DNA of 38,597 bases from contig CAJQQM010000029.1 in assembly GCA_905480485.1 (NCBI GenBank), forward strand, positions 1 through 38,597. Reading direction: 5' to 3'. The translations under genes were made by a program, and so were the position numbers. Shown one piece after another: positions 179 through 38,308 of the stretch (position 1 is its first letter; each line of letters starts with the position of its first letter). The notes under the pieces were generated by a model, which made no database searches, had not been told where the DNA came from, and saw only the letters and a list, made by a program, of their open reading frames with translations. Source of the DNA: an uncultured Aureispira sp. (lineage in GTDB: Bacteria > Bacteroidota > Bacteroidia > Chitinophagales > Saprospiraceae).

Positions 179-3100
179 CTAATTGTCTTCTCTTTTTTTG
201 TGTAGCTTTAATTTCTTTTGAAAGTTCGACCTTTTTCTGGTTAATTGTTCAAGCGTTTTGGTATATTTCTTTAGTTGTACCGACCCTACATTTACTGCCT
301 TTGTTTGTAGGTCTATTGCATCAATTTTTTTACTTAGTTCAGTAATATTACGCTCCCATCGCTGCACCCGATTTTTTTTAGACTCTTCCATTAAATCTTT
401 GAGGGAATTGAATTCTTTTTTGTAGGAAAACCCAATTCCTGTTCGAACTGACCGCCCTAAAATAGTCGATTCAGTACGGTTATAAGCCTTGATTTTGAGT
501 TGCCCATCATTTGTAATTGCATACTCGACTCTAAAGTCTCCTCCAATATAGTTATTTCCTTGTTCGTCGGTAGAAAGTGTTTGATTTTCACTGGCAATAT
601 CCATATTCGCTCCAGCATAAACAGTTAATTTATCATTCAAAAACTTAACATCTGACCCCACACGAACATTAGATGTGCGTGAATTAATCGTCTGATTGTC
701 GCTGTCCCGAACATTGAAATTAAAATCAAATTCTAAACTAGATATAAAGCCAACATCTTTAATGACACCTTCAAGAAGGTCATTAATATACAAAGTAAGT
801 TGTTGAGATACCAATTCCGAAACGGTACTGATTCCTGTATTTAAAACTGAATTGCCTAAATCTACATTGTTTTCTAAGGGAAGAAACTGCTGTAAAGCGA
901 TTACCCCAAAGACCTGTCGATTCAATTCATTTTTGTCGGCCTTTATAGTTCTTAAGGCCAAATTAACAGGATTTTGCAATCGAGCAGGAACATCCGAAAT
1001 TTTAATGTCAAAATTAATATCTGGCTGAAACAATTCGCCCCTCAACAACATCAATAAATCTACATTACAAGGCTGATTTGCCAAACTTGACAATTCAGGG
1101 TTACCTAGGGTATAACTACTCACAAGGTTGCTGACTCCTAATCCTTTTTGATAGGCAGCTTGTATATCTAATTGGGCACGATAAGGGTCTCCATCATTTT
1201 CGCCCCAAGAAATAGTCCCTCCTGGAATAACTTTGAAAGGTTTGTTGATTAGGTTTTTGTAGGTAAAAAGATAATTGCCCTCGGTGATTTCAAAATCACC
1301 AAACATTTGAAGCTCGCCTGTGGGACTATAATTAATACGCAAGTCACTTTTGCCAGATCCTTCTATGATATCCCCAGCTTTTTCATCGATGATAAGCCTT
1401 GCGACAGCAGAGGGCTTGATGTGCGCAATTATTTGTATATCTAACCCTGCCAAGACTTGATCTTTTACTGATTTGATGGTAGAAGAATCAATGGTTTGTG
1501 TTTTGTCTACAAAAGATATGTAATTGGTCTCGGAAACCTCTAAAGGCCCTCCGACTGGCAAATTGAACGTAGTGTTTGGCTCGGTTGTGGCGTCAACTTT
1601 AAGTTTTAGTTTTTCGAACGGTCCACTGAAAGAGGCGGTGCCGGTAGCGTAAACAGTTCCATAAAATGTACTGTTGTCGTCTATTGTGGTATTCATTGCT
1701 AAGTTATTTTTCATAACTGCAGTGATGTCTAAACCAAAATTTTTGAGATTTTCGTGCACCAAACGACCTCCAATATACGCAGTATCCAAGGGTTTGGAAG
1801 CCTCTACAACAGGAACACCTCCACTAAAATACTCTTTCCCATTTGTCAGAACAAGCGGAGGGTCGACATGAAACCCACTGTTGTCAATTTTTACGTTTCC
1901 TTGAGATAAAACATAGGTCGTTTGCAAAAAATTGACCGTCGTGCGTACTTTGCGTACTGATCCATCTCCCTCGATATTTAATTTAGTCTTTTTACCTTCT
2001 ATTTTGCCAAAAATACGAGCTTGAGCGTCGGCAAATCCTTCTGTGGCGGATATTTGCTCCTTTAAGAAATATTCTAAAATAGACGCTTTAGCACCTTCTA
2101 CAGTAATATCCACATCCAATAAATTCTGCAGATAAGTATCGTTGGTGGCTATAGTAGGAGTAAAATTGGCCCCTACATACAGGCTGTCTACAAAATCTGA
2201 ACTATGCGTAAAGAGGCCCCTAAAGGTCGACTTGATACTATCCGCACGAACCAAGAAGCGTGAATTAGCTCCCCAAAAATCACGATTAATAATTAGCGTA
2301 TCGATTCCAAAGTCCGCAAAAATAGTTTTTTGATTAAATACATTTTGAATGGAAGCTATACCGGAAAAACGCCCATCAATTTCAACTTTCGGTATGGGCT
2401 TCATAAGGCTATACAACCAGCCTAAATCCATATTTTCTACTTTAACTTCCGCTCCCAAATTATCATTAATGCTTTTTAATTCAATTTTTTTGTTGCCACT
2501 GTACATATTGACATTGCTAATGTCCAAAACCTTGTCACCAACTTTGACATAATTATCATCATTAATTACCCACGATTGGTCTAAAATATTCAAACTAGAA
2601 GTATCTAACCGCAGGACCACAAGTTTTTCATTGATTTCTAACTTACCTTTGATATCGAGCTTAGAGGCAAACTCCCCTACTGCATCTGCTTTGGCTACAA
2701 AAAGGACTGAATCACCGATAGCATCTAAAGCCAATTCTATCCCTGGAATAAAAGGGTTACCTTGAATATTAAGTGCTTTAACTACACTATTGACGACAAA
2801 TTCAGGCCCTTCAGCATTACCACTTAGTTTAATGTCGCTAAAGCCAATATCTCCTATTTCCAAGGTGCCAATTTTACCTTCCAATTCTAGATAGCCATCC
2901 ATTCCGTAGTAATGCCCCGTGAGTTCAATATCCTTTAGCGATTTAAATTGTTTGTCGAGTAATTGTGTAAGATTTTTAGAATCTTTAAGGTCGAGACGAA
3001 TGTCGAACTCTTGATGCGGTATCGTATCTAAACTGACTATGCCTGCTTGAAGCGCCACATCTGCAATCGAAACAGGTTCGGAATTGGCGAAATTCTGGTT

Positions 3101-5634: not shown

Positions 5635-6645
5635 ATGGCTAAAAAACCCGTAATTCTATTAGCAATTGAGTCCTCCTGCGATGACACTTCTGCCGCTGTC
5701 CTCAAAGATGGAAAGATTTTATCCAATTGCGTGGCCTCTCAATCAATTCATAAAGCCTATGGTGGAGTGGTCCCTGAAGTAGCCTCAAGAGCGCATCAAA
5801 TCAATATAGTTCCGGTTGTACATGCTGCACTCGAACAAGCTGGAGTAGCCAAAGAATCGCTTTCGGCAATCGCTTTTACCCTTGGCCCTGGATTAATGGG
5901 GTCTTTATTAGTGGGGGTTTCTTTTGCCAAATCGATGGCGCTCAGTTTGAATATTCCAATGATTGAGGTGCATCATGTTCAAGCACACATATTAGCACAT
6001 TTCATCGAAGCCCCACGACCTGAATTTCCCTTTTTGTGCCTGACTGTATCAGGAGGTCATACGCAAATAGTACAAGTAAATGATTATTTACAAATGGATA
6101 TCTTGGGAAAGACCATCGATGATGCTGCAGGCGAAGCCTTTGACAAAACAGGAAAACTGCTTGGCTTAGACTATCCTGCGGGCCCTATTATTGACCGTTT
6201 AGCAAAGCAAGGCAAGGCTATTTATGAATTTACTGAACCAAATATTCCTGGGTTAGATTTCAGCTTTAGTGGCCTCAAGACAAATATTCTGCGTTTTCTA
6301 CAAAAAAACCATCGAAAAGATCCTCTATTTATTCAAGAAAACCTCAACGATATTTGTGCATCTGTTCAAGATAGAATTGTTTCTATACTCATCAATAAAT
6401 TAAAAAAAGCACATCAACAGACAGGTATTCAACGCATTGCTATTGCAGGGGGTGTTTCAGCTAATTCTGGATTAAGGGCTGCCCTAAAAGCATGTGAAGG
6501 CAGTGAAAACTGGACCATTTATATTCCTAAATTTGAATATTGTACCGACAATGCTGCCATGATTGCCATGACCGCATATTATAAATTTTTGAATGCTGAT
6601 TTTTGTGGTCAGGAGGTTGCTCCATTGGCCCGCTATCATTTCTAA
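5635..6645 (+). CDS. tsaD: tRNA N6-adenosine threonylcarbamoyltransferase TsaD
   Basis: TsaD transfers the threonylcarbamoyl group from TC-AMP to A37 of ANN-decoding tRNAs, together with TsaB and TsaE. The 336-residue length is normal for the family. Visible motifs: AIESSCDDTSAAV at the N-terminus (ASKHA fold), the metal-binding histidines in HHVQAHILAH (around 112-117), VSGGHTQ, the LDFSFSGLKTN block (around 204-214), IAGGVSANSGLR, and the terminal DNAAMIAMTAYY. The ATG at 5635 gives the standard N-terminus. The exonuclease gene follows after 9 bases, so the two are probably one operon. The partner gene tsaB lies 2 kb away on the other strand. Confidence 0.97.
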   Translation: MAKKPVILLAIESSCDDTSAAVLKDGKILSNCVASQSIHKAYGGVVPEVASRAHQINIVPVVHAALEQAGVAKESLSAIAFTLGPGLMGSLLVGVSFAKSMALSLNIPMIEVHHVQAHILAHFIEAPRPEFPFLCLTVSGGHTQIVQVNDYLQMDILGKTIDDAAGEAFDKTGKLLGLDYPAGPIIDRLAKQGKAIYEFTEPNIPGLDFSFSGLKTNILRFLQKNHRKDPLFIQENLNDICASVQDRIVSILINKLKKAHQQTGIQRIAIAGGVSANSGLRAALKACEGSENWTIYIPKFEYCTDNAAMIAMTAYYKFLNADFCGQEVAPLARYHF

Positions 6646-9603: not shown

Positions 9604-11373
9604 ATGCGCTTAGTTACATTTATTGGATTATTCATTGTTTCATTCACACTTTTTGCTCAACAAGATAGCATCTATACCTCTTTAGCAGATAGCAGCTTAA
9701 ATCCTGATCAAATTATACAATTAGATTTAAGTGACAACAATCTGAGTGAATTGCCAGCTGTTTTGTTTCAATGCCTTAACCTTGAGCAATTAAACCTTAG
9801 TCAAAATCAGCTTAGTGAACTCCCTGAAGCATTAGGACGTTTCATAAAATTGCGCCATTTAAATCTAAGTCAAAACAATTTGGAGGGGCTGCCCAAATCG
9901 TTCAAAGAACTAAACAGTTTAAAAGAATTGAATCTGAGCGGCGGTATACGTGCCAATGCAATCAATGGCATTATTGCCACCTTAGCCAAAAACACCGCCT
10001 TAGAAAAGCTAAATTTAAGCCAAAACAAATTAGTTGCTATTCCCTCCGGAATTAAATCAATCAAGCAGCTCAAAGTACTTGATTTGAGTGATAATCTTTT
10101 GGTTTTATTGCCAAAATCATTGGCCAAAGCACCTGCATTACAATCTATAATTTTATCAAAAAACAAAAACTTAGATTATGGAAATGCCATTTTGCCTTTG
10201 TGCGAACTGAGTTCTTTGCGACACATAGATATCTCAGAAAATGCTTTAAAAGCGATACCAAAAGAAATAATGGATGCGCGCTACATACGCTCTCTCAATA
10301 TTTCGAACAATTTAATAAGTAGCTTGCCCGATAGAATGACTCAATTAATTAGGCTTCGAACACTTGATGCCTCTAATAATATTATCGAAGATATTTCGCC
10401 TGCTTTTTCGTTGCTTGAAGCCCTCGAAAACTGGAACATCAACAACAATAAATTAAAGGCACTGCCACAAAGCATTGGCGAAATGTACGAGCTTAGGTCC
10501 TTAAAAGTACACAATAATGCGCTACAAAAATTACCGGAAAGTCTCTTTGAACTTAAAGACTTAGTACACCTTGACTTGGGGAACAATCAGCTAGAAACAT
10601 TGGATAATTCAGTGGCTACCCTAAAAAAATTAACCCATCTAGACCTCGGGGGCAATCGTATCAAGAAAGTAGAAGATTTGTCGTTGTCTAACTTAAAAAA
10701 CTTGCAATATTTGAACCTTTCGGATGTACCTGAAATTGATTGGGATAATCTTTTGGAACAGATTTTTACTTTTAAAAAACTTCAAACGCTATTTATCGCT
10801 AACAACAACATAGCCAAGGTTTCGCCGAGTATTAAACAGTGTCAACAAATCGCCAACTTAGACATTTCTGGAAACAAACTCGCAGCGGACAAACAAGAAT
10901 TTTGGGAGCTAATGGCGGCATTACCGCTTTTAAAGTCTATTAACTTGGCTAATAACAACTTACAAAATGTATCTAATCAAATCAAAGCATGCTCAAAGCT
11001 TGAACGGATTAATTTAGATAATAATTCGATCGAAGTTGTTTCAGATGCCTTTGGAGAATTGAGCAATTTGCAGCAACTAAGCCTCAACCAAACAGCTATC
11101 AAAACGATTCCTACAAGTATGGTCAAGCTTAAGCGACTCAAAAAAATATCTTTAGAACAGTGTGCCTCTTTAGACATCAAAGAACTATTAAACTGCCTAA
11201 AAAACAATACCTTAGAGGAGTTGAATCTTTCGAATGCTAATATCGAATCCTTCCCTGAAGAAATACCAAATATCAAGGTTCGTCAGTTAATACTCAAAGG
11301 CAATGCCTTGAAAAAATCTGAGATAAAACGACTTATTAAATTATTACCCAATTCAACCATTTTGTTTGAATAA
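9604..11373 (+). CDS. Secreted leucine-rich-repeat protein
   Basis: A 589-residue protein with a signal peptide (residues 1-19, MRLVTFIGLFIVSFTLFAQ) followed almost entirely by leucine-rich repeats of about 22-24 residues from roughly residue 38 to the end. The repeat pattern is LxxLxLSxNxLxxLPxxL, with repeated blocks such as LNLSQNQLSELPEAL. Such solenoids usually bind other proteins. There is no T9SS sorting domain at the C-terminus (it ends LLPNSTILFE), so the protein is probably periplasmic or exported another way. Some repeats deviate (WDNLLEQIF, KQEFWELM), forming longer loops. The specific partner is unknown. It is transcribed divergently from tsaB and followed 59 bases later by the thioesterase fusion gene. 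Confidence 0.85.
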   Translation: MRLVTFIGLFIVSFTLFAQQDSIYTSLADSSLNPDQIIQLDLSDNNLSELPAVLFQCLNLEQLNLSQNQLSELPEALGRFIKLRHLNLSQNNLEGLPKSFKELNSLKELNLSGGIRANAINGIIATLAKNTALEKLNLSQNKLVAIPSGIKSIKQLKVLDLSDNLLVLLPKSLAKAPALQSIILSKNKNLDYGNAILPLCELSSLRHIDISENALKAIPKEIMDARYIRSLNISNNLISSLPDRMTQLIRLRTLDASNNIIEDISPAFSLLEALENWNINNNKLKALPQSIGEMYELRSLKVHNNALQKLPESLFELKDLVHLDLGNNQLETLDNSVATLKKLTHLDLGGNRIKKVEDLSLSNLKNLQYLNLSDVPEIDWDNLLEQIFTFKKLQTLFIANNNIAKVSPSIKQCQQIANLDISGNKLAADKQEFWELMAALPLLKSINLANNNLQNVSNQIKACSKLERINLDNNSIEVVSDAFGELSNLQQLSLNQTAIKTIPTSMVKLKRLKKISLEQCASLDIKELLNCLKNNTLEELNLSNANIESFPEEIPNIKVRQLILKGNALKKSEIKRLIKLLPNSTILFE

Positions 11374-35267: not shown

Positions 35268-36689
35268 CTAAGCTTCGTTATATCGCTTCAAATAACTTTC
35301 CCATCCAATTTTACGATATATCTCAGATTGCAATCTTGGATTTTGTGCCTGGTAAATACCTCTACCCACAATCATGATGTCTACTCCTCTTTTAGAAAAA
35401 GCCTCGTCTGGGTGGTTATAAGTTTGACCCATGCCGTCTTTTTTGCGATCGGTATTAATACCAGGTGTTAACATCATGATACCTGGGTTATCCGATCGAT
35501 AGTTTTGAGAAACAGTTCCAAGAACTACATCCTTGTGGTCCTCTGCTATATCTATAGCTTTCAATGTATACTTTTTGCTCGTTAGAGTATCTTTTGTCGA
35601 CATTTCTGCGACAACAATTAGAGCTGTTGTGTCTAGTTTCCCTGTCGCTTTCAGGGCTTCTATACTCGATGACCCGGCAACAACATGCACCGTAACAGCA
35701 TCAGCCCAATCTGATATACTTAAGGGCGCTGCTGTAAATTGTTGCATAACGATGTGCCCGATATCTGCAAATTTACGGTCTTCAAAAATCAAAAAATTAT
35801 GTTTTTCAGAAAGTGATTTTAACTCTTTAATGACTTCAGGAGAAATATCCGCTAAGTTATCAGTATGCGTCTTTAGCATGCATATATTGGGCCCAACTGC
35901 ATCAGCTAATTTTAACAACTCTGCAGCTGTTTTGACATCACCCGAACAACATAAATTTGTTTTTTTAGATTGCACAATTTTAGCCAATCTTTTGGCAACA
36001 GGGTGCATCGCTTCTTTTCCAATTTTTTTGTAGCTGTAAGAAACGGCCTGTTCTCTACGGGCTCTAACTTGTTCGAAATCAATACGGTTGGTTTCGATAA
36101 AAACTAAAGTATCGGTATATTGTTTGGCGTTAATTTTACCGCCCTCTTTCATATATTCTAAAATTTCTCTTATGGTATAAACGGTATGTACTTTATATCC
36201 ATAATCGTTCAATAGCAATGCCCCTCCCTGCATACGGTCAACAATTGACAAAACATGCTTAATTTCAAGGCCTTCTACTTCTAGGGCCTCTAGTGTTTCT
36301 TTCATCGAAATACCGCTACTAATTACATCGTCAATGACTAAACAAGAATCTCCTTGTTTGTAGATACCTTCCACCATTTTCTTTGTCCCATGACGTTTCT
36401 TTTCTTTTCTTTTGACAATCATCGACTTAGAGTTAAGGACAGCCATTGTTGAACTTATTGATAAAGCCGCATAAGGCACCCCACATAAGTGATCAAACTC
36501 AAGCTTGGATGATATGTCCCAAAGTTGCTCACTGATACTTTTCAAAATATCGGGATAGGCTACAATACGTCGAAAATCAAGGTAAAATGGGGATTGAAGA
36601 CCACTCTTAAGCGTGAATTCACCAAATTGTAATACTCCAAGGTCAAACAGTCTGAGTGCTAAATCTTTTTTATTCATCATTTGATTCAA
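35268..36689 (-). CDS. Fused orotate phosphoribosyltransferase and OMP decarboxylase (UMP synthase)
   Basis: One 473-residue polypeptide carries the last two steps of UMP synthesis. Residues about 5-200 are OPRT (FTLKSGLQSPFYLDFRR, then the PRPP loop CLVIDDVISSGISMKE around 110-128). Residues about 225-470 are OMP decarboxylase of the eukaryote-like subtype: IFEDRKFADIGHIV (catalytic Asp/Lys around 302-306), VVAEMSTKDTL, MMLTPGIN, and VGRGIYQA. Bacteria usually have separate pyrE and pyrF; the OPRT-first fusion is the arrangement of animal and plant UMP synthase. Two near ATGs exist (MNQMMNKK); the first is used. It has a clear promoter and terminator and stands alone. Confidence 0.93.
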   Translation of the reverse strand: MNQMMNKKDLALRLFDLGVLQFGEFTLKSGLQSPFYLDFRRIVAYPDILKSISEQLWDISSKLEFDHLCGVPYAALSISSTMAVLNSKSMIVKRKEKKRHGTKKMVEGIYKQGDSCLVIDDVISSGISMKETLEALEVEGLEIKHVLSIVDRMQGGALLLNDYGYKVHTVYTIREILEYMKEGGKINAKQYTDTLVFIETNRIDFEQVRARREQAVSYSYKKIGKEAMHPVAKRLAKIVQSKKTNLCCSGDVKTAAELLKLADAVGPNICMLKTHTDNLADISPEVIKELKSLSEKHNFLIFEDRKFADIGHIVMQQFTAAPLSISDWADAVTVHVVAGSSSIEALKATGKLDTTALIVVAEMSTKDTLTSKKYTLKAIDIAEDHKDVVLGTVSQNYRSDNPGIMMLTPGINTDRKKDGMGQTYNHPDEAFSKRGVDIMIVGRGIYQAQNPRLQSEIYRKIGWESYLKRYNEA

Positions 36690-37297: not shown

Positions 37298-38194
37298 ATG
37301 GTTGAGAATCCGCCTCTGGCAATCTTAGAGAAGAAACGAACCGAATCTTCATTATTTCCACTCATTGAGCCTCATTTATTTTCGCAAGTCGTTAACAAAA
37401 TGAGGCTCTTTTTTTTGGAAAAAGGTTTCCTAGAAGTCCACACACAAAACCGTTTGAGTATCATGGCGGCTTGTGAAGATCCAAAAACAATTGCAAGTTA
37501 CAATTACCATGGTCAGGTTTGGCCACTACCACAAACAGGACAAATGTGGTTAGAGTACGAACTACTATGCAAGCCAGATGTGCCTGGTTATTTTTGCGTA
37601 TCTACATCTTATCGTAATGAACCAAATCCTGTAGACGGTCGTCATTGTATTATTTTTCCTATGTTTGAATTTGAATTACCCGGTGGAATCGACGCTTTGA
37701 TTAAAATTGAAGCTGAACTTTTGGAATACCTTGGGTTTGGGAAAGCTGATAATTTCCCTAAAGGCAAGTACGAGGAAGTCGCTAAAATGTACGGTGTAAA
37801 AGAACTTGAAAATTCTGACGAAGAACAGATTGGTAAAGATTACGGTGCAGCCTTTTTCTTAACTGATTTCCCGGAATACACTAGTCCATTTTGGAACATG
37901 AAGCGTAATACTGAAAATCCTGAGATTTCTGAAAAAGTAGACGTATTAATGCACGGAATGGAAACTATAGGTTCGGCAGAAAGAAGTTGTAGTCCAACAG
38001 AAATGAAAGAAACATTTTACAGTATCGAGGACGGAAAATATGCCCAACGTTTGTTTGATATGTTTGGACAAGAACGTGTTGAAGCCGAATTAGAGGAATT
38101 TTTAAACCTAGATTTTTTCCCACGCTCAGGCGGTGGAATCGGAGTTACAAGAATGATTAGAGCTATGCAACTCTCTGGCTTAATCGAAAAATAG
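37298..38194 (+). CDS. Class II aminoacyl-tRNA-synthetase-like core protein (asparagine synthetase-like)
   Basis: A 298-residue protein with only the catalytic core of a class II synthetase of the AspRS/AsnRS/AsnA type. Motif 2 region: CVSTSYRNEPNPVDGRH followed by FPMFEFELPG (around 100-128); a substrate-pocket-like LPQTGQMWLEYELL precedes it; motif 3 is RSGGGIGVTRMIRAMQL (around 272-288). There is no N-terminal anticodon-binding OB domain, so it should not charge tRNA normally. Known relatives of this build are the archaeal AsnRS-derived asparagine synthetase and AsnA, which make asparagine from aspartate. That reaction is a plausible but unproven guess here. It is followed by two terminators and is transcribed toward the rRNA operon end. 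Confidence 0.8.
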   Translation: MVENPPLAILEKKRTESSLFPLIEPHLFSQVVNKMRLFFLEKGFLEVHTQNRLSIMAACEDPKTIASYNYHGQVWPLPQTGQMWLEYELLCKPDVPGYFCVSTSYRNEPNPVDGRHCIIFPMFEFELPGGIDALIKIEAELLEYLGFGKADNFPKGKYEEVAKMYGVKELENSDEEQIGKDYGAAFFLTDFPEYTSPFWNMKRNTENPEISEKVDVLMHGMETIGSAERSCSPTEMKETFYSIEDGKYAQRLFDMFGQERVEAELEEFLNLDFFPRSGGGIGVTRMIRAMQLSGLIEK

Positions 38195-38227
38195 ATTGCG
38201 ATAACCTCGTATCAAGGCTAATTTTAA

Positions 38228-38257
38228 AGGTTGACTGTGTGCAAACACGGTCAACCT
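38228..38257 (+). terminator. Long stem with GCAA tetraloop, first terminator
   Basis: A 13-pair stem (38228-38240 with 38245-38257, one G-U pair) closed by a GCAA loop, 33 bases after the stop. The following T-run is weak (ATTTGCCTTTT), so it may also be a protective 3' hairpin. Confidence 0.7.
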
Positions 38258-38308
38258 ATTTGCCTTTTATTAAAGTTATTGCAAAAAAATCAACCATGAC
38301 TAAACAAT

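Follow-up and report, generated by a model that had tools for sequence, protein, structure and literature searches.

A compact AsnRS-like protein without an anticodon-binding domain as a candidate supplier of dihydroorotate

A class II synthetase-like protein beside PyrEF

The window, by which we mean the whole 38,597-nucleotide stretch of Aureispira DNA that was analysed, carries at 37298-38194 (+) an open reading frame with an ATG start, 298 residues and no internal stops. Its open frame, Pfam match and homologues mark the product as a compact class II synthetase-like protein, which we propose as a supplier of dihydroorotate. The divergent upstream neighbour at 35268-36689 (-) encodes a fusion of orotate phosphoribosyltransferase and orotidine 5'-phosphate decarboxylase (PyrEF), as indicated by Pfam (PF00215, E 1.7e-50; PF00156, E 7.9e-8) and by the NCBIfam pyrF and pyrE models, both over cut-off. 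Directly 3' of the gene lies a very stable stem structure (38196-38284, +; z -7.5; inner hairpin 38228-38257), probably a terminator, and a similar, conserved inner hairpin of the AGGTTGRCT type follows the gene in the Aureispira relatives (L024-L027). A tRNA-like RNA at this position was considered and rejected, as the stable hairpin does not look like a cloverleaf.

The single Pfam domain of the protein is PF00152 (tRNA-synt_2, residues 27-290, E 8.6e-20), and its 71.4 bits against a gathering score of 25 bits place the protein in the class II (D, K, N) superfamily. The Pfam scan revealed no anticodon-binding (OB) domain, only 26 residues precede the PF00152 match, and PF03590 (AsnA, E. coli type) was not matched. 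An earlier note on this DNA had described a 298-residue protein that keeps class II motifs 2 and 3 and has no anticodon domain, and this description holds. All NCBIfam matches were weak and far under their cut-offs: AspRS(Asn) gave 43.7 bits (cut-off 368), LysRS 28.7 bits (468), the asnS model TIGR00457 26.8 bits (342.6) and genX (EpmA/GenX) 20.8 bits (286.9), and on this last score an EpmA-like role was rejected. No archaeal AsnA model (PRK06462-series) reached its cut-off; only NF005055 was reported, at 20.4 bits against 389. When the family profile was compared with the PDB, the best match was an AsnRS (2xgt, E 2e-12); an AsnRS reached 50 bits, the solved archaeal AsnA 3p8t 22 bits. The protein strongly matches phrog_29758, whose function is not annotated (E 4.6e-113, 377.9 bits).

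Three ordinary synthetases are encoded elsewhere in the genome from which the window comes (4.2 Mb, 96% complete), namely AspRS (592 residues), LysRS (543) and AsnRS (513), each in an open frame; AsnRS was confirmed by its NCBIfam model, and AspRS and LysRS were distinguished by alignment. Since all three are full-length, the 298-residue protein is a fourth, accessory relative. Whether asnB and asnS are present, a question raised by the earlier note, can be answered for both: AsnB is found at 462 bits (cut-off 267), and the full AsnRS is encoded too.

We further aligned the family with AsnRS, AspRS, LysRS and EpmA around the active site. Glu60, in an ACEDP loop (37475-37477, +), aligns with the glutamate that binds the alpha-amino group in AspRS and AsnRS. 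QTGQMWLE (residues 79-86; 37532-37555, +) corresponds to the amino-acid pocket, and GSAERS (residues 225-230; 37970-37987, +) brings Arg229 to the position of the side-chain-binding arginine of AsnRS and AspRS. Motif 2 reads SYRNE (residues 104-108, with Arg106 and Glu108; 37607-37621, +), and Arg115 and His116 are counted with it; motif 3 reads GGGIGVTR (residues 278-285, with Arg285; 38129-38152, +). The acidic residues Asp215 and Glu222 are kept as well. The roles of Glu60, Arg229 and the other ligands are presumed from the AspRS/AsnRS literature. All 113 aligned family rows are identical at E60, Q79, T80, Q82, E86, R106, E108, R115, H116, E124, E126, N200, D215, E222, R229 and R285, and 112 keep L85. 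The ATP- and amino-acid-binding residues, whose loss the earlier note would have counted against its reading, are retained. At the site that discriminates Asp from Asn, the family sequence QTGQMW-Leu85-Glu86 resembles QSGQLYAE of AsnRS, unlike QSPQLYKQ of AspRS with its Lys-Gln; the glutamate of QxGQxxxE (E86) and the arginine of GxxxR (R229), both typical of the AsnRS pocket, are invariant. With these motifs kept, the family enzyme should still form an adenylate, and the Leu85-Glu86 pocket suggests that its ligand is asparagine, not aspartate.

Distribution of the family and its pyrimidine context

Close homologues (E < 1e-100) were found in 9 of 298 genomes of the order, the window's own genome counted; the eight others are 59-82% identical, and one match (L005) continues across the terminal stop of the open frame. 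A further 13 order genomes gave weak matches only, in open frames of 393-607 residues that are presumably ordinary synthetases. Scanning two short patterns over 84,980 species genomes yielded 134 relatives, of which 80 were kept as genome loci. These belong to Bacteroidota, Myxococcota, CPR groups, DPANN archaea, Dependentiae, Alphaproteobacteria and Pasteurella atlantica, with single MAGs of other phyla. A viral scan gave at least 581 relatives among at least 600 stretches, and 80 of them were kept as viral loci; a plasmid search for the gene gave no match. Identity is 52-87% across the 113 aligned rows, CPR, DPANN and viruses included, and falls as low as 42% in uncultured phages. The homologues in the eight other order genomes and in CPR, DPANN and viruses indicate that the open frame is not a chance one. 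The cyanophages P-SSM2, P-SSM5 and P-SSM7 carry the gene as well, annotated as a tRNA ligase. In a quick tree that held six AsnRS/AspRS rows and in which long branches meet at the root, the family formed one clade on a long branch (SH-aLRT 100), within which the window protein groups with Aureispira.

The gene recurs beside pyrimidine genes. Neighbour ORFs at 163 family loci were grouped by BLAST with single linkage, a loose procedure, and the clusters were identified in part by Pfam and NCBIfam scans of ten neighbours, elsewhere from the ORFs and the grouping itself. PyrEF, as in the window, stands beside the gene in relatives too. A dihydroorotate dehydrogenase (DHODH) cluster was found at 23 of the 80 genome loci and a PyrEF cluster at 22. 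Five clusters are related to pyrimidine synthesis, and 30 of the loci have one or more of these in the flank that was fetched; a rough estimate that assumes one DHODH per 3 Mb genome predicts chance proximity, to within 10 kb, at about 0.5 of the 80 loci. At the remaining 50 loci the flank, a short one in some cases, contains no pyrimidine gene. In Candidatus Bandiella the cluster reads gene-pyrF-PRTase-DHODH-like-prs, and the scan confirmed OMP decarboxylase, a DHODH-like protein and PRPP synthetase. On the complete chromosome of Pasteurella atlantica the order is gene-pyrF-PRTase next to a divergent pyrD; here a class 2 DHODH and OMP decarboxylase were confirmed beside the gene, and the small PRTase scored slightly below its Pfam cut-off. 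A phage homologue of this PRTase (L123), 44% identical over 89 residues, has no Pfam match. A Dependentiae locus (L269) has a convergent pyrF-pyrE-DHODH-like set, Aureispira CCB-QB1 has a DHODH beside the gene that the scan confirmed, and a tRNA-bearing locus (L095) has a weaker DHODH-like match (5.9e-12). In the window's own genome the strong DHODH match lies away from the gene (G000:C148:13192-14064). The DHODH-like proteins beside the gene at L075 (the Bandiella locus; 2251-3012), L095 (1276-1962) and L269 (6851-7948) are divergent, with Pfam E values of 5.9e-12 to 1e-15, and are possibly a matching PyrD variant.

To examine the upper pathway, profile searches were run over 46 handles, namely 35 distinct carriers (36 handles, with G284 the same as G299) and 10 non-carriers of the same families. 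Aspartate transcarbamoylase (pyrB, TIGR00670) was over its cut-off in 2 of the 35 carriers, G320 and G301 (in the latter as a fragment that a contig end cuts off), versus all 10 non-carriers; the sub-cut-off TIGR00670 matches in G317 and G319 are ornithine carbamoyltransferases. The carB model TIGR01369 was passed in 4 of the 35 carriers (G300, G301, G319 and G320; in G319 the gene adjoins an ornithine carbamoyltransferase), again versus 10 of 10 non-carriers. Both families were detected in 14 of 14 control genomes. The carB/pyrB pattern is seen in isolates, not in MAGs alone, as Aureispira CCB-QB1 (G298) and Pasteurella atlantica (G317) illustrate. Across the order, TIGR00670 matched none of the 9 carriers, against 272 of the 289 non-carriers, in 263 of which it passed its cut-off (Fisher p 6.9e-11, with no correction for relatedness); the status of one genome (G150) was taken from the carrier-set search. 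The 26 of 298 order genomes that have no match are all 9 carriers plus 17 non-carriers, several of these more than 97% complete, which shows that pyrB can be lost where this gene is not present. Six of the nine order carriers fall in one family (f12), where several gene-less genomes also have no pyrB. The gene-less genomes G258, G011, G028 and G054 are 98-99% complete and gave no aspartate transcarbamoylase match.

For PyrC, TIGR00857 was over cut-off in one carrier of 35 (G301) versus 6 of 10 non-carriers, in a search with this one model, which is not that of the E. coli-type (homodimeric) enzyme; 20 of the 35 carriers gave no match whatever, and the remainder bar G301 stayed below cut-off. 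Thirteen PyrC-like stretches from nine genomes were read, a selection that leaves out, for example, two partial G300 matches and the matches of G065, G076, G085, G150, G301, G309, G318 and G320. The sub-cut-off stretches of carriers G000, G092, G110, G284, G298, G300 and G302 carry what we take to be allantoinase- (PHVHINEPGR) or hydantoinase-type motifs, and gene-less G017 and G093 have one stretch each with a motif that we take to be of dihydroorotase type (DQVHFR[ED]PG). As far as examined, pyrC thus seems to be missing from most carriers too.

The lower pathway is better represented. A DHODH match was found in 27 of 35 carriers (24 over cut-off, 17 at E < 1e-60, eight without) and 24 of 31 carriers matched OMP decarboxylase (seven did not). 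Those without one or the other are mostly small, possibly incomplete CPR or DPANN genomes, and some of them could use the gene otherwise. AsnB was over its cut-off in 18 of 33 carriers, the window's own genome among them, indicating that asparagine is made in many carriers, not in all.

A type II tRNA beside the gene in phages

A tRNA with a long variable arm (type II) follows the gene in 63 of the 80 kept viral loci, at a median gap of 7 bases and in 62 loci within 60 bases. Three of the other 17 end less than 100 bases past the gene; the remaining 14, some of them near-copies, lack the tRNA. All 32 aligned tRNAs have the anticodon GUU, G73 and a U1-A72 pair, and 29 of the 32 have U37, which is odd in a tRNA reading ANN codons. 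In the cloverleaf drawn for the alignment 99.9% of cells pair, and 19 of 23 pairs covary. ARAGORN assigned other anticodons to some of the longest tRNAs, whose aligned anticodon loop is GUU. This tRNA family spans viral and phage loci from L111 to L186 (for example L185, 12797-12881). The gene and tRNA pair is present in the named cyanophages P-SSM2, P-SSM5 and P-SSM7, which together with the 80 kept viral loci make up 83 viral and phage loci; 16 of the 83, all tRNA-bearing and some near-copies, have a PRTase-like or PRPP synthetase neighbour.

Outside the viral loci the pair is rare. With a model of the tRNA (R1), neither the window nor 77 of the 80 genome loci showed one adjoining the gene, and ARAGORN scans of the window and of L001-L009 gave no tRNA at all. 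The three exceptions with a type II tRNA after the gene, L076, L095 and L098, have proteins that nest among viral rows. On the tree, the tRNA link changes three times and is confined to viral rows and to MAG contigs nested among them; with none at the other 77 genome loci, the pair looks like a viral trait. Elsewhere in the window's own genome, R1 gave 11 matches among up to 150 scored candidates, and the ten that were read are tRNA-Leu, tRNA-Tyr and other ordinary tRNAs. In 27 other carriers (up to 102 candidates each), the scores, taken without reading the identities individually, revealed no clear partner tRNA; the best reach about 73 bits and overlap the weakest viral matches, at 68-75 bits. 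The phage enzymes may also charge the type II tRNA(GUU); alternatively, the tRNA might aid decoding while asparagine is drained, or serve as a cofactor.

Proposed role and alternative explanations

The gene stands beside pyrD, pyrE and pyrF genes, and the genomes concerned lack carB and pyrB and, for the most part, a recognisable pyrC; unless something unseen does the work, this leaves one candidate supplier of dihydroorotate. We consider it probable, with ample room for doubt, that the gene encodes an AsnRS-derived stand-alone enzyme that supplies this compound. Replacement of the upper pathway steps is inferred from the genomes: the enzyme would take the place of CarAB, PyrB and PyrC and hand dihydroorotate to PyrD, PyrE and PyrF. 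The earlier note had offered adenylate chemistry on another target as its second option, and this was the better half of it, since pyrimidine synthesis is where both the neighbours and the absent genes lead.

Given a core expected to bind asparagine and ATP, we suggest a route from asparagine and bicarbonate, in which L-asparagine, HCO3- and ATP would give dihydroorotate, AMP and PPi. The alpha-amino group of asparagine would take up CO2, the class II ATP site would adenylate the resulting carbamate, and ring closure would come from the nitrogen of the side-chain amide, which Glu86 would hold in place. Asparagine would thus supply N1, C4-C6, the carboxylate and, from its amide, N3; only C2 would be needed from elsewhere, from bicarbonate. 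This specific reaction is a tentative suggestion that we rate as rather less than an even prospect. Our fuller proposal, held only slightly more firmly and still short of even, is an AsnRS-derived dihydroorotate synthase that works from asparagine, bicarbonate and ATP via an N-carbamoyl-adenylate, without carbamoyl phosphate, and that has spread horizontally among bacteria, CPR, DPANN and marine phages, the phages coupling the enzyme to a type II tRNA(GUU) of its own. That tRNA would be a separate attachment outside the dihydroorotate scheme; the scheme does not explain it, and we count this against the dihydroorotate reading, together with the carriers in which carB, pyrB or pyrC is over cut-off, the carriers that gave no DHODH or no OMP decarboxylase match, the 17 gene-less order genomes without a pyrB match, the limited presence of AsnB among carriers and the 50 of 80 genome loci with no pyrimidine neighbour.

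It is also conceivable, if unlikely, that the protein is a compact AsnRS that charges a dedicated tRNA through its long variable arm and acceptor end and so needs no anticodon domain. The AsnRS-type pocket and the tRNA(GUU) after the gene in 63 of 80 viral loci and at L076, L095 and L098 would fit such an enzyme. However, a partner tRNA was found neither beside the gene in the window and at 77 of 80 genome loci nor clearly elsewhere in the 28 carrier genomes, where part of the candidates were scored and the scores were lower; 14 viral loci with sequence past the gene do without it as well, and the link is limited to viral rows and nested MAG contigs. A normal AsnRS is already present in the window's own genome, and the pyrimidine neighbours and the missing carB, pyrB and, as far as examined, pyrC would be left unexplained. 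The same neighbours and missing genes would agree with a partial replacement, in which the protein forms carbamoyl-aspartate, or cyclises it through adenylation of the beta-carboxylate, and another enzyme does the rest. AsnA-type enzymes adenylate the beta-carboxylate of aspartate and provide a precedent. Yet the pocket is Asn-type, most carriers are without carB and pyrB and, to the extent examined, without pyrC at the same time, and the few clusters read held no obvious second ligase, so that we regard this possibility, too, as improbable.

The earlier note had favoured a tRNA-independent asparagine synthetase of the archaeal AsnA type. The domain build is equal, and weak matches to NF005055 and 3p8t exist, but the 20.4 bits lie far under the 389 required, the pocket is AsnRS-type, the genome has AsnB and AsnRS, and the pyrimidine context and the mutual exclusion with pyrB both speak against it; we therefore think this role very improbable. 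A truncated or decaying AspRS/AsnRS copy, for which length alone would argue, is refuted by the separate long-branch clade, by core residues that do not vary in any of the 113 rows and by the complete AsnRS and AspRS that the genome encodes at other sites. The protein is thus synthetase-derived without being a fragment, as the earlier note had supposed.

Known systems share parts of the proposed arrangement. AsnRS resembles the family in motifs 2 and 3, the QxGQxxxE pocket and the GxxxR arginine, whereas the family has no OB anticodon domain, falls under the TIGR00457 cut-off and, in cells, showed no partner tRNA. Archaeal asparagine synthetase A (AS-AR, 3p8t) is likewise an AsnRS-type class II core of about 300 residues with no anticodon domain, and functions as a small-molecule ligase. 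It differs in that the two match at 20-22 bits only, and the family has a pyrimidine context with loss of carB, pyrB and, as far as examined, pyrC rather than a need for asparagine; in the tree of AsnRS/AspRS rows, which held no AS-AR row, the family lies on a long separate branch. TsaC/YrdC (threonylcarbamoyl-AMP synthase) converts an amino acid, threonine, with bicarbonate and ATP into a carbamoyl-adenylate, which is the chemistry proposed here, on an unrelated fold; its product goes to tRNA A37. With CarAB-PyrB-PyrC, the family would share the end product dihydroorotate and the downstream PyrD, PyrE and PyrF, although the protein is unrelated and one 298-residue enzyme would stand in for three to four. 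According to PMC13260591, Thermococcus kodakarensis obtains carbamoyl phosphate from arginine and makes pyrimidines without carbamoyl-phosphate synthetase. As described there, that route still makes carbamoyl phosphate (PMC13260591), whereas the family carriers are also without pyrB.

In the titles and abstract openings of the open-licence PMC papers that our searches listed, we found no description of the family in pyrimidine synthesis and likewise none of a compact synthetase paired with a type II tRNA(GUU). To our knowledge, the steps through carbamoyl phosphate, carbamoyl-aspartate and dihydroorotate are generally taught as universal. If the proposal is true, an enzyme of protein synthesis was recruited to make dihydroorotate by a route not yet described, which would give this core pathway a second origin, in an enzyme scattered over bacteria, archaea and many marine phages. 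CPR, DPANN and intracellular bacteria with pyrE and pyrF and without carAB and pyrB would then have a way to make UMP, and a role could be assigned to a viral family whose annotations so far are just tRNA ligase or unknown (phrog_29758).

Three other features of the window were recorded. A 589-residue protein at 9604-11373 (+) has only sub-cut-off NCBIfam matches, several of them to leucine-rich-repeat models, and is probably an ordinary LRR protein. TsaD, the tRNA t6A37 transferase (409 bits), is encoded at 5635-6645 (+), about 30 kb from the gene, and we claim no link between the two. A partial 5S rRNA occupies the contig end (38502-38597, -), where an rRNA operon probably breaks the assembly.
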